A DNA stretch of 64,000 nucleotides from Acidimicrobiales bacterium (GTDB lineage: Bacteria; Actinomycetota; Acidimicrobiia; Acidimicrobiales; SHLQ01): NCBI GenBank assembly GCA_020629635.1, contig JAHDCX010000001.1, forward strand, positions 201,043-265,042, read 5' to 3'. This document shows positions 18,599 to 48,692 of this stretch, in pieces. A model generated the notes under the pieces. The model saw nothing but the letters and a program-made list of their open reading frames with translations, was not told the origin of the DNA and did not search any database. The translations under genes were made by a program, and so were the position numbers. Within the stretch, counting starts at the first letter, position 1, and each line of letters begins with the position of its first letter.

Positions 18599-19594
18599 GT
18601 GGACTTTCTGACCGAGCCAACCCTGATCGTCGCGCTCATCGAGGTCGTGATCGGTCTGTTCCTGCTCACGAAGGCCGCTGACCTCTTCGTCGATGGGGCG
18701 GTGGCCGTCGCCTCGGCCGCCAACCTGTCTCCCATCGTCGTCGGCGCAGTCATCGTGGGTTTCGGCACCAGCGCACCCGAACTCCTGGTCTCGGGCATTG
18801 CAGCGGCAAACGGCGACCTCGATCTCGGCGTCGGGAACGTCGTCGGTTCGAACGTCGCCAATCTGTCGCTCGTCCTCGGTGCTGCGGCACTGATCGTGCC
18901 GATCTTCGTTACTCGAGCCGTTCTGGCCCGAGAAGCGCCGCTCAGTCTCCTCGGCGTGCTGCTGTTCGCGTTCTTCACGCTCGGCGGGCTCGCCGTCTGG
19001 GAAGGCATCGTGATGCTCGTGGTGCTCGTCGCTGCGCTCTCGTGGGTCGTGTTCGGGGGCAACGAGGACGCGGTCGACGAACTCGACGTCGACCCCGATG
19101 CCAGCATTGGCCGTTCGCTCGGGACGACGCTCGTCGGGCTCGTCGGGACCGTGCTCGGTGCACAACTCATGGTCTGGGGGGCCCTGGCCCTCGCCGAAGA
19201 GTTCGGACTCACCGGCGGCTTCATCGGCTTCACCCTCGTTGCACTTGGTACGTCGTTGCCGGAGCTCGTCACCGCCGTTGCGGCGGCCCGCAAGGGCGAG
19301 ACCGAACTCATCCTCGGCAACCTGCTCGGCTCCAACATGTTCAACAGCCTTGCGGTCGGTGGGGTCATCGCCATCCTCGGCGCTGGCTCGATCGACGACG
19401 AGCTCATGCGGACCTACGGCATCGTCGCCATGGTCATCGTTGCCACCCTCGCGTGGATCTTCATGGTCGGCCGTCGCAAGGTGAGCAAGCCCGAAGCAAT
19501 CATCCTTCTCGCGGTGTACGCGTTTGCGATCATCGCGATCTCCGAGACCGGATTCGGCGAAGGCCTGCGCGACGCCATCGAGTCGATCGTCTGA
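18599..19594 (+). CDS. CaCA-family calcium/sodium (cation) antiporter
   Basis: A 331-residue membrane protein with about ten transmembrane helices in two inverted halves. The two alpha-repeat ion-binding motifs are VGFGTSAPELLVS (about residues 53-65) and VALGTSLPELVTA (about 216-228), followed by GNVVGSN and GNLLGSN respectively, the hallmarks of YrbG-like Ca2+/cation antiporters. An acidic loop (NEDAVDELDVDPDAS) separates the halves. Start GTG 18599 is probably leaderless. Its last 24 codons fall in a 143-bp repeat duplicated at 21408-21480, where an extra tail fragment remains. Confidence 0.92.
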   Translation: MDFLTEPTLIVALIEVVIGLFLLTKAADLFVDGAVAVASAANLSPIVVGAVIVGFGTSAPELLVSGIAAANGDLDLGVGNVVGSNVANLSLVLGAAALIVPIFVTRAVLAREAPLSLLGVLLFAFFTLGGLAVWEGIVMLVVLVAALSWVVFGGNEDAVDELDVDPDASIGRSLGTTLVGLVGTVLGAQLMVWGALALAEEFGLTGGFIGFTLVALGTSLPELVTAVAAARKGETELILGNLLGSNMFNSLAVGGVIAILGAGSIDDELMRTYGIVAMVIVATLAWIFMVGRRKVSKPEAIILLAVYAFAIIAISETGFGEGLRDAIESIV

Positions 19595-19664
19595 GCAGGC
19601 GGGCCACACCCCGTTAGCCTGACGGTGTGGCCGACCGATACTGGGTGGAGACACTCGGGTGTCC
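19522..19664 (+). repeat. Left 143-bp direct repeat bounding an insertion (attL-like)
   Basis: Identical to 21408-21550 except at two positions (19562 G versus 21448 A; 19576 C versus 21462 T). It spans the last 24 codons of the antiporter, the intergenic rimO promoter and the first 12 rimO codons. Sequence identity stops abruptly after ...GGGTGTCC. The antiporter here is intact, while rimO is cut after 12 codons. Confidence 0.95.
19615..19620 (+). promoter_or_regulatory. Duplicated rimO -10 box facing into the insertion
   Basis: TAGCCT lies six bases before the GTG of the truncated rimO copy and is identical to the box at 21501-21506 before intact rimO. Transcription from it would run into the inserted genes. 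Confidence 0.45.
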
Positions 19665-19677
19665 GAGAATTACTTAG
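19627..19677 (+). pseudogene. Truncated 5' fragment of rimO
   Basis: GTG 19627 begins the RimO N-terminus (MADRYWVETLGCP), and after the repeat boundary the frame runs into foreign sequence and stops at TAG 19675-19677, giving at most 16 residues. The intact gene starts at 21513 from the other repeat copy. The fragment keeps the rimO -10 box (TAGCCT, 19615-19620). Confidence 0.9.
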
Positions 19678-19706
19678 ATGACCAAAGGCAAAGGACACAT
19701 ACGGCC

Positions 19707-19934
19707 ATGACCACAACCTCCGCCTCGATGAGCCCCGGTCAGGTCGCTCGACGCCTTTGCGGGAAACGAAGCTACGGGCACACCCTCGAAGCGCTTGGTG
19801 CGGCATTCGGAACGACTCGACCCTTTGACGCGAGCGAGGCGGGCGCGGCTCTTCGTGGGCTGTTGCCCTTCGTTGCTGTCGACTGGACCGCCGTAGGAGC
19901 GCTCTTCGAGCGCGACGTCGTGGCCGCCCGCTGA
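19707..19934 (+). CDS. Orphan 75-residue protein in the insertion
   Basis: A small ORF started at ATG 19707, with AAGGA eleven bases upstream; an in-frame GTG at 19659 lies inside the repeat. The sequence (SPGQVARRLCGKRSYGHTLEALGAAF) has two probable helices and ends VGALFERDVVAAR. I do not recognise a family. It is the first ORF behind the duplicated rimO promoter and might be expressed from it. There is no signal peptide or membrane segment. Coding status is moderately supported by the ribosome binding site and frame length only. Confidence 0.45.
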   Translation: MTTTSASMSPGQVARRLCGKRSYGHTLEALGAAFGTTRPFDASEAGAALRGLLPFVAVDWTAVGALFERDVVAAR

Positions 19935-20228
19935 GGACACCTTCTTTATCCGGCGATCTCGGGCTGAGCTTGTACGCCCTACCAGACAGAGCAAGGCTCT
20001 GGTCGCGGCAACGGCCCGAGCTTCGCTCTTTGTAACGGCTGTTCCCCGTGGAAACACCGCGTGGGTGGTCATGAAGACCGTCGGCTATCGTTGAGCCAGC
20101 GCTGCAAACGCAGCCGAAATAGGAGAGGACTCCCCGCTCTAACGCCGGGAGCCCTCTCGTCATCACACACATTTTGGAGCAGCGAGCTGGCACTCGCTTT
20201 TCCTCACCAGAGATAAGGAGCTACACGC
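19935..20228. other. Gene-free stretch inside the insertion
   Basis: About 290 bases with no convincing ORF. It contains a short GCTGC/GCAGC hairpin at 20101-20114 and the larger hairpin at 20123-20158, followed by an AAGGAG ribosome binding site (20214-20219) for the next ORF. It may hold a terminator and a promoter or a structured RNA. Confidence 0.5.
20123..20158 (+). terminator. Imperfect 14-bp hairpin inside the insertion
   Basis: GAGAGGACTCCCCG (20123-20136) pairs with CCGGGAGCCCTCTC (20145-20158) with two mismatches around an eight-base loop. It could be an intrinsic terminator-like structure for the preceding ORF or a recombination-related palindrome. No long T-run follows. Confidence 0.55.
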
Positions 20229-20576
20229 GTGTATCAAGATCGTAGTGTAATTTTGGCCAATTTGCGAGTGGCGAACAAGGCTCTTGACGAGGCATCTCAA
20301 TGGGCGATGTCTCAGCCCGAGTCGCACCGATGCAGCGGACCACAGAAGCCCTTTAGGTCGAAGGTCACGACAGAGCCGAGGATCCAGGAGGCTCTCGATA
20401 CTTTGGAGTGCGCTCTGGAGTGTGACCCGCCAGAGCAAGTGAGGAGCCGTATCAACGCAGGTGTCGCTGTGCTCAGTCGAGCGCTGTCGGAGGTGGTGGA
20501 AACGAGGCGGCCGGTTCAAGGACGACCGATACCGGAGCTGCCCTTCGCTGGCGGCCGCCGCGTTCCGACCGGTTAG
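20229..20576 (+). CDS. Orphan 115-residue protein in the insertion
   Basis: Started at GTG 20229 with AAGGAG nine bases upstream, one of the best ribosome binding sites in this part of the window. Probably mostly helical: SVILANLRVANKALDEASQWAM, then IQEALDTLECALECDPPEQVRSRINAGVAVLSRALSEVVE, with a proline-rich tail. No family recognised and no membrane segment. Codon usage and GC look less extreme than in the flanking genes, consistent with acquisition. It could be a phage- or plasmid-type accessory protein, but nothing in the sequence proves it. Confidence 0.5.
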   Translation: MYQDRSVILANLRVANKALDEASQWAMSQPESHRCSGPQKPFRSKVTTEPRIQEALDTLECALECDPPEQVRSRINAGVAVLSRALSEVVETRRPVQGRPIPELPFAGGRRVPTG

Positions 20577-20609
20577 TCGTCGCCTCCACCTCCCGGTGAA
20601 ACTGAAGAG

Positions 20610-21179
20610 ATGAAGCTGAGGGACGCTGGCTTCCTGGGCTGCGGCATCGTCATCGGTGTCTTGGTCTCGTGGGTTCTCGGATTGATTCAGCCCACATCGG
20701 GGACGGCTGGCGCGGTCGGGCAGTGGGTCGCCGGGCTGGCAACTGCCGGTGGTGTGTTCTGGACCGCGCAGCAGACCAGAGCGGACGAACGACGACGACA
20801 GGCCAGATCTGCTGATCAGCTTCGGCGATGGGCGCGAGACAACCCCTCTATAGACGTTGCTTTCATCGGGCTTGAAGCACTCAAGTCATTCTCCGGGACA
20901 GCGTTGAGTGATGAGTTTCCGAACCTTCGGAGAGCGTCCGAGATCGTTGCGGACCATGTAAGGGGTCATCAGCCGGGCTCGACTGTCTTACTCGAACGGG
21001 AAGTAGGTGTGCGAGGCCCAGCCGATACGTTCAAGGCTTCGACGCCGACTTACATAAAGCTCGACGCTGCATTTCGAGCGATTAGGCATAGCGCTCTCGC
21101 AGGAAGCGACCTGAGCCCGTACGTTCTCGCTCGACTTGAGTCTGCCATCGTCGATCGCGATGACACGCGAGGCTCTTAG
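20610..21179 (+). CDS. Orphan membrane-anchored protein in the insertion (189 aa)
   Basis: An N-terminal transmembrane segment (about residues 8-27, FLGCGIVIGVLVSWVLGLI) and a second hydrophobic stretch (AVGQWVAGLATAGGVFWTAQQ, about 36-56) are followed by a basic charged region (RADERRRQARSADQLRRWARD) and a soluble helical domain of about 110 residues. The first part resembles small phage or plasmid membrane proteins of unknown role. Start ATG 20610 lies 33 bases after the previous stop, so the two are probably co-transcribed. No known domain is recognised. Confidence 0.55.
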   Translation: MKLRDAGFLGCGIVIGVLVSWVLGLIQPTSGTAGAVGQWVAGLATAGGVFWTAQQTRADERRRQARSADQLRRWARDNPSIDVAFIGLEALKSFSGTALSDEFPNLRRASEIVADHVRGHQPGSTVLLEREVGVRGPADTFKASTPTYIKLDAAFRAIRHSALAGSDLSPYVLARLESAIVDRDDTRGS

Positions 21180-21407
21180 CCGTCGTGTTCGATGGTGTGG
21201 AGGAAGAGGAGGGCCTCGACTTGCTTGTGGTCGCTAACGTCGATAGTCCAGCCTTCGAGCTCTCAACGTAGACGTTCTATCCATGATCGGCGTGCCGTGG
21301 TTTGTGGTGACTTGCGCCTGATGAGGCAGCGTGAACATCTCCGGGTCGCGCTTGCCCACGAGAAATGGCCACCGAGTCGTCTGCACGCAGCGGCCACACG
21401 ACGGATT

Positions 21408-21480
21408 GTTTGCGATCATCGCGATCTCCGAGACCGGATTCGGCGAAAGCCTGCGCGACGCTATCGAGTCGATCGTCTGA
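21408..21480 (+). pseudogene. Duplicated 3' tail of the antiporter gene
   Basis: Encodes the last residues of the antiporter (AIIAISETGFGESLRDAIESIV then stop in the original frame) without any 5' part. The preceding sequence, 21180-21407, has no recognised gene. It is a remnant of the integration or duplication event. Confidence 0.85.
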
Positions 21481-21500
21481 GCAGGCGGGCCACACCCCGT

Positions 21501-21506
21501 TAGCCT
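21501..21506 (+). promoter_or_regulatory. -10 box of rimO (leaderless)
   Basis: TAGCCT ends six bases before GTG 21513 and no ribosome binding site is present, pointing to a leaderless rimO mRNA. The same box is duplicated at 19615-19620. Confidence 0.5.
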
Positions 21507-21512
21507 GACGGT

Positions 21513-22775
21513 GTGGCCGACCGATACTGGGTGGAGACACTCGGGTGTCCCAAGAACGAGGTGGACTCCGACAAGCTCGTCGGGAAACTCGTGGCCGACG
21601 GGCTGGTCGCCGCTGAGCGCCCCGAAGACGCCGATCTGGTCGTCGTCAACACCTGTGCATTCATCGAATCCGCCCGGCAGGAGAGCATCGACACCGTGCT
21701 CGAGCTCCGGGACCGCGCCGAGGGCTCCCGAGTCGTCGTCACCGGGTGCATGGCCGAGCGATACGGCGACGAGCTCGCGGACGCACTCCCCGAGGCCGAT
21801 GCGGTGGCGGGATTCGGCGTGCCGGTCACGCTCGGGGTCAAACCTGCGCAATCCGTCCCGGAGTTCGACCTGCTCAACCTTCCGCGGCCCGCAGCGGCTC
21901 GACCATGGGCGTACGTCAAGATCGCCGAGGGATGCGACCGGAACTGTGGCTTCTGTGCGATCCCGTCGTTTCGAGGTCCACAACGCTCGAGAACGCACGA
22001 GTCGATCCTCGCCGAGGTGGAGGCACTCCATGCATCCGAGGTCGTGCTCGTGGCCCAGGACCTCGCCTCTTTCGGCCGTGACCAGGGGGTCGGTGAACGC
22101 ACGCTCCACGAGCTCGTCGAGCAGGTCGCCGACCGAGTCGAACGGGTTCGGCTCTTGTACCTGTACCCGTCCGATCTCGACGACCGGCTCATCGACGCGA
22201 TTCTGGCCACCGGGGTTCCGTACTTCGATCTGTCGCTTCAGCACGTCAGCCGACCACTCATGCGACGCATGCGTCGATGGGGCGACGGCGAACGATTCCT
22301 CGACCGGATCGATCGGATCCGGACCGCCGAACCCGACGCCGTGTTCCGCTCGAACTTCATCGTTGGTTACCCGGGTGAGACCGAAGAAGACCACGACCGG
22401 TTGCTCGACTTCGTCGAGGCCGCACAGCTCGACTGGTGCGGGTTCTTCGCCTGGTCGCCCGAGGACGGAACACATGCAATGACCCTTGATGGGCGGGTGG
22501 AGGAGTCGGTCGTCCACGAACGACTTCGTGAGTGCAGCGAGCGGCAGGACGAGATCACGGCGAGACGTCGCGACGCGCTGATTGGCGAGACGGTCGAGGT
22601 GCTCGTCGATCACGTCGGTGTCGGCCGTACCCATCGTGAGGCGCCCGAGATCGACGGCGTCGTCCACGTGCGCGACGATCTGGCCGTGGGGGATCTGCAC
22701 CAAGTCGACATCACCGATGCACTCGGTCCCGACCTCTACGCCGGAATCGCCCCCGATGCGGCGGAGCGCACCTAG
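21513..22775 (+). CDS. rimO: Ribosomal protein S12 methylthiotransferase
   Basis: A 420-residue radical-SAM enzyme that methylthiolates an aspartate of ribosomal protein S12. The N-terminal UPF0004 domain holds cysteines in ETLGCPKNE (C12), VVNTCAF and TGCMAERY that bind the auxiliary cluster; the radical-SAM motif is CDRNCGFC with C141, C145 and C148. A C-terminal TRAM-like segment (VEVLVDHVGVGRTHREAPEIDGVV) completes the family layout. MiaB is the closest alternative, but LGCPKNEVDS and the length favour RimO. Start GTG 21513 lies in the right repeat. The pgsA ATG follows the stop directly. Confidence 0.95.
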   Translation: MADRYWVETLGCPKNEVDSDKLVGKLVADGLVAAERPEDADLVVVNTCAFIESARQESIDTVLELRDRAEGSRVVVTGCMAERYGDELADALPEADAVAGFGVPVTLGVKPAQSVPEFDLLNLPRPAAARPWAYVKIAEGCDRNCGFCAIPSFRGPQRSRTHESILAEVEALHASEVVLVAQDLASFGRDQGVGERTLHELVEQVADRVERVRLLYLYPSDLDDRLIDAILATGVPYFDLSLQHVSRPLMRRMRRWGDGERFLDRIDRIRTAEPDAVFRSNFIVGYPGETEEDHDRLLDFVEAAQLDWCGFFAWSPEDGTHAMTLDGRVEESVVHERLRECSERQDEITARRRDALIGETVEVLVDHVGVGRTHREAPEIDGVVHVRDDLAVGDLHQVDITDALGPDLYAGIAPDAAERT

Positions 22776-26583: not shown

Positions 26584-27759
26584 TTATTTGAGCGTCTCGC
26601 CGCTGGCGATGTCGAAGAAGTGGAATCGTCCCGAATCGATGACGAGCTCGATGTCGGCGCCGTTCTTCACCGGTGAGCGTGGCGAGACACGGGCCACGTA
26701 GGTCGCGGTCTCGTGGTCGGAGCTGAGCGCTGCGTCTCCCTCGTCATCGAGCGCATCGGCGACGATGTAGGGTTCGGCGTCAAGGCCGAAGTGCACGATG
26801 ATCTCGGACCCGAGCGATTCGACGAGGCGGGCGTTCGTCTTGAACGTCCGGGCAGCGTCTGGTGAATCGACGGTGCTGGCGTCTTCCATGTCCTCGGGAC
26901 GAAGGCCGACGACGACCTTGCTGCCGAGGGCGTTTGCGAGCTTCGAGCCGTCTTCGAAGGCCGGCACGTTGACCGTCACCGAACCGATGGTCACGGTCGG
27001 TTCACTCGCCGAGCCGCCCAGGACGCCTTCCATGAGGTTCATCGAGGGGGACCCGATGAAGCCCGCCACGAACACGTTGGCGGGATGGTCGTAGAGGTCC
27101 TGTGGCGAGTCGACCTGCATCAGGTAGCCCTTGTTGAGCACGGCGACACGATCGCCCATGGTCATGGCCTCGACCTGATCGTGGGTGACGTACAGGGTCG
27201 TCACTCCGAGATCGCGCTGAAGGCCGGCGATCTCGGCCCGCATGGCGACGCGCAACTTTGCGTCGAGATTCGAGAGCGGCTCGTCCATGAGGAAGGCCTT
27301 GGGCTGTCGCACGATTGCCCGTCCCATCGCCACGCGCTGACGCTGACCACCGGAGAGCTGGCCCGGCTTGCGGTCGAGCTGTTCGGTCAGGTCGAGGATC
27401 GCCGCAGCCTTGTTGACGCGCTCGGCGATCTCCGCCTTCGACACCTTGGCGAGCTTCAGCGCAAAGCCGATGTTGTCCGCCACGGACATGTGCGGATACA
27501 GCGCGTAGTTCTGAAACACCATGGCGATGTCGCGGTCCTTGGGTTCGACGTCGTTGACGACCCGACCGTCGATCGACAGTGTCCCTGAGCTGATGTCCTC
27601 GAGACCGGCAACCATGCGCAGCGCCGTCGACTTGCCGCAGCCCGATGGTCCGACGAGCACCAGAAATTCGCCGTCCTCGATGTCGATGGACAGATCGTGC
27701 GTCGCCTGGAAACCATTCGGGTACACCTTGTTGATGCCCTCGAGCTTCACTTCAGCCAT
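26584..27759 (-). CDS. Carbohydrate ABC importer ATPase (UgpC/MsmK-like), system A
   Basis: A 391-residue MalK-type ATPase with Walker [11 protein letters not shown]-loop [10 protein letters not shown], signature LSGGQRQR, Walker [12 protein letters not shown] and switch histidine in [10 protein letters not shown]. The C-terminal OB/TOBE regulatory domain (about 240-391) ends [15 protein letters not shown]. It would energise sugar import with the permease pair at 36197-38091 and binding protein at 33789, which have no ATPase of their own. It is transcribed away from galK; a weak operator-like site and the promoter lie in the 158-base gap. It may serve several importers, as MsmK-type ATPases do. 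Confidence 0.92.
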
Positions 27760-47522: not shown

Positions 47523-48692
47523 ATGGCATCAGTCGAATTGAAGAAGGTTCAGAAGGTCTACGACGGAGCGGTCGATCCGGCGGTCAATGACCTCGATCTG
47601 GAGATCGAGGACGGCGAGTTCATCGTGTTCGTGGGCCCGTCTGGCTGCGGGAAGTCGACGGCGCTGCGGATGATCGCCGGTCTCGAGCAGATCACTGGCG
47701 GTGAGTGTGTGATCGGCGATCGGGTGGTCAACGACATCCCGCCGAAGGACCGCGACATCGCAATGGTGTTCCAGAACTACGCGCTGTACCCCCACATGAC
47801 GGTCGCCCGGAATCTCGACTATCCGCTGCGGATCGCTGGTGTGGAGAAAGCCGAGCTCGACGAGCGCGTGACGCAGATTGCGCGGACCCTTCAGCTGACC
47901 GAACTGCTCGAGCGCAAGCCGTCGCAGCTCTCCGGCGGCCAGCGCCAGCGGGTGGCGATGGGTCGGGCGCTCATCCGTCGTCCAGCGGTCTTCTTGATGG
48001 ACGAACCGCTGTCGAACCTCGACGCCAAGCTGCGCGTCTCGATGCGCTCGGAGATCGCACGGATCCAAGAAGAGCTCGGTGTGACGACCGTGTACGTCAC
48101 TCACGACCAGGTCGAAGCGATGACCATGGGCGACCGTGTCATGGTGCTCAACGCCGGCAAGCTCCAGCAGGTCGCCCCGCCCGAGGTGCTCTACAACAAG
48201 CCCGGGAACGTGTTCGTGGCGGGTTTCATCGGTTCGCCGGCGATGAACCTCTGGCAGTCCAAATATTCGATCGATGGCGACGGTGGCTGGGTCGAACTCG
48301 GTGGGCAGCAGGTCTCGGTGCCCTCGGCCACCGCGGAGCGGATCGGACTCGGCGCGTACGCCGGCAAGGACATCACCGTCGGAATCCGTCCCGACGATGT
48401 GCACGACGACGCCACCGATGAGTCGTCTGGCTCGGTCAACGTGACGGTGAAGGTCCGTGAGGCGCTCGGGTCCGAGGTGATCTGCCACTTCGACGCCGGC
48501 GTGTCCCGCATGATCATCGACGACCCCGATCTCGAAGAGATGATGGCCGAGGGAATGGCTCCCGACATCGACTTCGTCGGCCGTTTCTCACCCGAGAGCG
48601 ACGTCCAGCCGGGCGAGGAACGGCGCGTCCGATTCGACGTCAACAAGCTGCACTTCTTCGACGCCGAGTCGGGGCTCCGCATCGACACCTAG
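47523..48692 (+). CDS. Carbohydrate ABC importer ATPase (UgpC/MsmK-like), system B
   Basis: A 389-residue MalK-type ATPase with Walker [11 protein letters not shown]-loop [10 protein letters not shown], signature LSGGQRQR, Walker [12 protein letters not shown], and a TOBE/OB regulatory C-terminus ending KLHFFDAESGLRIDT. Start ATG 47523 has GGGGGAG upstream. It is divergent from the binding protein gene and is closely similar in core to the ATPase at 26584, suggesting paralogues. It ends eight bases from the convergent helicase gene. Confidence 0.94.
   Translation: MASVELKKVQKVYDGAVDPAVNDLDLEIEDGEFIVFVGPSGCGKSTALRMIAGLEQITGGECVIGDRVVNDIPPKDRDIAMVFQNYALYPHMTVARNLDYPLRIAGVEKAELDERVTQIARTLQLTELLERKPSQLSGGQRQRVAMGRALIRRPAVFLMDEPLSNLDAKLRVSMRSEIARIQEELGVTTVYVTHDQVEAMTMGDRVMVLNAGKLQQVAPPEVLYNKPGNVFVAGFIGSPAMNLWQSKYSIDGDGGWVELGGQQVSVPSATAERIGLGAYAGKDITVGIRPDDVHDDATDESSGSVNVTVKVREALGSEVICHFDAGVSRMIIDDPDLEEMMAEGMAPDIDFVGRFSPESDVQPGEERRVRFDVNKLHFFDAESGLRIDT

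Follow-up and report, generated by a model that had tools for sequence, protein, structure and literature searches.

The junction between a calcium/sodium antiporter-like gene and rimO is interrupted, in the 64,000-nucleotide stretch of an Acidimicrobiales genome analysed here (the window, to which all coordinates refer unless a contig is named), by 1,743 bp of DNA lying between two 143-bp direct repeats. The order of the genes would suit an actinobacterium. Judged by eight congeneric genomes, in which the antiporter-rimO junction is uninterrupted and the repeat region occurs once, this interior is an insertion. We tentatively read it as a decayed or integrase-less, CIME-like integrative element that would have entered by site-specific recombination at the promoter and 5′ end of rimO, a reading that is quite possible but short of probable. 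The find is a modest one, a single insertion in a single genome, which consists of an unusually long, two-sided repeat pair around an unplaced interior. The locus is made up as follows.

18599–19594, plus strand: intact gene for a calcium/sodium antiporter-like membrane protein (331-aa ORF; 70–77% DNA identity in congeners)
19522–19664, plus strand: left direct repeat, attL-like, made up of the antiporter 3′ end, the intergenic region (where the rimO promoter probably lies), and 38 bp from the start of rimO
19602–19632, unstranded (second copy at 21488–21518): inverted repeat GGCCACACC-N13-GGTGTGGCC, spanning the putative −10 box and the GTG start of rimO
19665–21407, unstranded: inserted interior, 1,743 bp, unique to this genome among those searched
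19707–19934, plus strand: orphan ORF1, 75 aa, linked to the truncated rimO start by adjoining or overlapping stop and start codons (TAG-ATG, ATGA)
20123–20158, plus strand: strong hairpin of 13 pairs with no U tract (z = −3.5 for the 106-nt stretch folded)
20229–20576, plus strand: orphan ORF2, 115 aa, predicted helical (low-confidence model)
20610–21179, plus strand: orphan ORF3, 189 aa, with a hydrophobic N-terminal part (low-confidence model)
21408–21550, plus strand: right direct repeat, attR-like, the source of the rimO promoter and 5′ end
21513–22775, plus strand: intact rimO (ribosomal protein S12 methylthiotransferase), named from its own sequence (72–75% DNA identity in congeners)

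The two repeat copies agree at 141 of 143 positions, exactly as the original prediction had described them, and differ at G19562/A21448 and C19576/T21462. When the entire contig of 633,634 bp (one of 37) was compared with itself, the match had an E value of about 1e-65, and a chance origin is therefore excluded. No second pair of the same kind was returned by this comparison. The lipoyl-domain pair at about 22.3 kb represents a domain repeated in tandem; the copies at about 350 kb, like the short ones near 77 kb, overlap or are closely spaced and look tandem; and the remaining long repeat set is confined to the opening 4.5 kb.

The repeated sequence belongs to the host. Its left edge falls inside the last 25 codons of the antiporter gene, of which it takes in the final 73 bp, and it continues through the intergenic region to cover 38 bp at the start of rimO; the corresponding region of the congeners is about 69–74% identical. 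Because each copy carries the antiporter end, the promoter, and the rimO start, both flanking genes are intact. In the alignment with the eight congeners, conservation within the intergenic region is highest in a hexamer (TAGCCT/TAGTCT-like) that closely precedes the GTG/ATG start. The hexamer is found in both copies and would fit the −10 box of a leaderless rimO transcript. The left promoter copy leads into a 16-codon rimO fragment, the stop of which directly abuts the ATG of a mini-ORF that overlaps the start of ORF1. Since this copy would read through the fragment and the mini-ORF toward ORF1, the insert may borrow the rimO promoter. The inverted repeat at 19602–19632 has 9-bp arms and a 13-bp spacer and is a weak candidate for the recombination core, to be taken as a lead only, because an inverted repeat as good is present in 5% of host 143-mers.

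The two differences between the copies were compared with the eight relatives. The codon at 19562/21448 is Gly (GGC) in the left copy and Ser (AGC) in the right one, while the relatives have Ser in five cases, Ala in two, Thr in one, and Gly in none. At 19576/21462, the C of the left copy is shared with seven of the eight, and the T of the right copy looks derived. There is thus apparently one change per copy, a pattern that would establish neither a right copy decaying as a duplicate nor a foreign source for it.

The original prediction had called the interior unlike the host, which holds, and the insertion foreign, which is supported by the eight empty sites in the genus and by an interior found in this genome only. 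Its G+C content is about 60%, against 65% for the host (0.56–0.66 in 300-bp windows, compared to 0.61–0.71 outside), and the GC3 of its ORFs is 0.62–0.71, compared to 0.79–0.84 for host genes. The ORFs fit host codon usage poorly; the annotated frame is still the top-scoring one of the three forward frames. The models of ORF2 and ORF3 are single-sequence structure predictions, both of low confidence. The hairpin at 20123–20158 may be terminator-like or regulatory. On the minus strand at 21180–21270, near the right end of the insert, a 28-residue reading, ELEGWTIDVSDHKQVEALLFLHTIEHDG-stop, resembles the terminal part of a broken gene; no convincing match was found for it.

The interior occurs once in its own genome and is absent from the other 18 family genomes searched. 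Searches of ORF1–ORF3 against Pfam, NCBIfam, PADLOC, and PHROGs gave nothing above noise, Rfam returned no RNA family for the interior, and none of the family searches recognised a recombinase, transposase, relaxase, or rep gene, in line with the earlier remark that no recombinase could be recognised. Nor were transfer, packaging, or phage-related genes found. The search of 19665–21407 in plasmid sets, part of a check that had been proposed, gave no match, and the viral and phage collections contained nothing similar. No convincing homologue of ORF1 or ORF3 was found in 297 genomes of the order, nor in scans of genome contigs, which detect close relatives only. The four best order-level matches of ORF2 were rejected as chance, as they fall on one common stretch and the one inspected (L025) is antisense to a long ORF. 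Likewise, the weak matches of ORF3 were rejected as short and scattered, none reaching 1e-4 across 396 genomes of the phylum.

These results bear on the classes of element to which the insert could belong. No transposase and no terminal inverted repeats beyond chance were found (0.41–0.98 of shuffles do as well), there is no second copy of the interior, and the repeat contains no tRNA gene, which supports the original argument that the insert is not a classical IS, a tandem duplication, or a tRNA-targeting island; the features of a MITE are absent as well. Nothing positive, on the other hand, speaks for the suggested satellite element: neither a helper nor a phage or plasmid relative was seen, and integrase, packaging, and replication genes were not found either. 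The insert is closest to a CIME (cis-mobilizable element, a decayed ICE/IME with attL and attR), with which it shares direct repeats that we infer to be att sites, an empty site in relatives, a preserved target gene, and an interior devoid of integrase and transfer genes. It differs in its longer, two-sided repeat and in that no ICE/IME relative was found at the site. As no ICE or IME with the same att sites was present in the collections searched, we call the insert CIME-like rather than a proven member of the class.

The structure demands either a single crossover with a junction-bearing molecule, site-specific or of the RecA type, or a duplication made at insertion. In the preferred scenario, a circle with an attachment site that is a copy of the host junction would recombine site-specifically with the host site; here, the circular intermediate, the recombinase, and the crossover point are all hypothetical. 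The integration would create attL (19522–19664) and attR (21408–21550), and the junction copy brought by the element would restore the rimO promoter, leaving both neighbours undamaged. The integrase would either have been deleted, as in a CIME-like remnant, or act in trans. A review (PMC5704250) describes IMEs that sometimes target the 5′ end of housekeeping genes, one of the flanking repeats sparing the target, and refers to decayed elements without integrase that keep attL and attR as CIMEs. The present insert resembles such 5′-end IMEs and ICEs in that the element-borne copy restores the promoter and 5′ end of its target but, unlike them, has no integrase or transfer module. In the literature passages on 5′-end targets, rimO is not named as a target of IMEs or ICEs.

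In favour of the decayed-element reading are the eight empty sites, the host-sequence repeats with whole genes, the lack of terminal inverted repeats, six tyrosine recombinases in the genome, the tRNA islands described below with their 54-bp and 105-bp repeats, and the inverted repeat with 9-bp arms over the rimO start. Against it, the 143-bp repeat exceeds the 8–60 bp given as usual for tyrosine-recombinase elements in the same review (PMC5704250), and repeat sequence lies to either side of the candidate core. Furthermore, in none of the genomes searched did the antiporter-rimO junction contain an integrase, a relaxase, or a related island. A more far-reaching reading, in which a minimal, recombinase-less 1.7-kb element inserts at the rimO promoter through a 143-bp target copy, is mobilized in trans or through host recombination, and has ORF1 expressed from the captured rimO promoter, is a long shot in our judgment.

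We have also considered a RecA-mediated, Campbell-type integration, in which a circle, plasmid, or excised fragment would happen to have brought along some 143 bp of junction sequence originating in the same strain or one very close to it. The anatomy of the locus is exactly that of a single-crossover product, and the circle integration put forward in the original prediction is therefore compatible with it; it is not proven by it, as a site-specific recombinase would leave the same structure. The Ser codon of the right copy, being the majority state of the relatives while the Gly of the left copy has no counterpart among them, could mean that the right copy came from another strain. However, this argument amounts to one nucleotide, and the other difference seems derived in the right copy itself. 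In addition, the repeat and the interior are absent from the plasmids and phages searched, and no recognisable rep or mobility gene is present in the interior, so that we regard this route as credible but unlikely. Somewhat more doubtful is the capture of filler DNA at a widely staggered double-strand break, where filling in of the overhangs would duplicate 143 bp in the manner of a target duplication and NHEJ would join the ends. Such capture is possible because the genome encodes Ku, and it would agree with ends lacking inverted repeats and with an interior that resembles unplaced, perhaps partly broken genes; yet overhangs of 143 nt are long, the repeat pair is unique in 633 kb, and the two inter-copy differences say nothing for it.

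An assembly or binning artefact, with foreign DNA misjoined through an overlap, would explain why the composition of the interior differs from the host and why it is absent from every relative searched. We consider it very improbable: the locus lies inside a 633-kb contig, the repeat copies differ at two positions, and a false join would need a foreign contig bearing both the antiporter tail and the rimO head. Least probable of all is a non-autonomous transposon that duplicated its target site over a very long stretch, as reported for IS1549/IS1634. Long and variable duplications (8–514 bp) are documented for these elements (PMC2266710), and the long direct host repeats around the insertion are a point of likeness, whereas the insert has neither the transposase nor the terminal inverted repeats of such insertions.

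Should the insert be an att-flanked remnant, the likely integration sites of this bacterial order would come to include the 5′ end of rimO, with a target copy long enough to retain the promoter. If no recombinase was involved in its entry, the insert would offer a clear natural example of how orphan genes can be added by homology-carrying circles or by break capture.

The empty-site comparison, which had been proposed as a check, found eight congeners uninterrupted. Elsewhere the junction is broken a second time: G002, a species that is sister to G006 and about 93% identical to it in this region, has its antiporter and rimO genes on different contigs, C23 and C29 (L008, L013, L057, L058). The breakpoints are 2 bp apart in the intergenic region, the neighbouring DNA is unrelated, and signalling-type genes are found upstream of rimO. 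There is no direct repeat at the G002 junction, no integrase was seen, and neither is shared with the present insert. This interruption may reflect an insertion or a rearrangement, or else a fault of binning, and it suggests no more than that the antiporter-rimO junction may tolerate interruption.

Two of the integrases elsewhere in the genome belong to tRNA islands. One, of about 11.9 kb (L051:660-12577), is at a tRNA-Gly with 54-bp repeats, and the other, of 12 kb (L052:1193-13547), is at a tRNA-Lys with 105-bp repeats, the repeats being 91% identical in both cases; long att repeats that spare the target gene thus occur in this genome. The tRNA-Lys island also contains, as read by eye, a type III-like restriction-modification pair, a possible AbiE-like pair, and a reverse-transcriptase-like gene, and it looks like a defence island. 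A further integrase gene (L053:10766-12184), with no direct repeats found in the 20 kb examined, is a candidate to act in trans. The genome also has a solitary integrase at C6:111856-112359. Finally, the window contains inverted copies of about 650 bp at 27034–27684 and 47601–48251, 20 kb apart and 77–83% complementary, which are probably paralogous genes.
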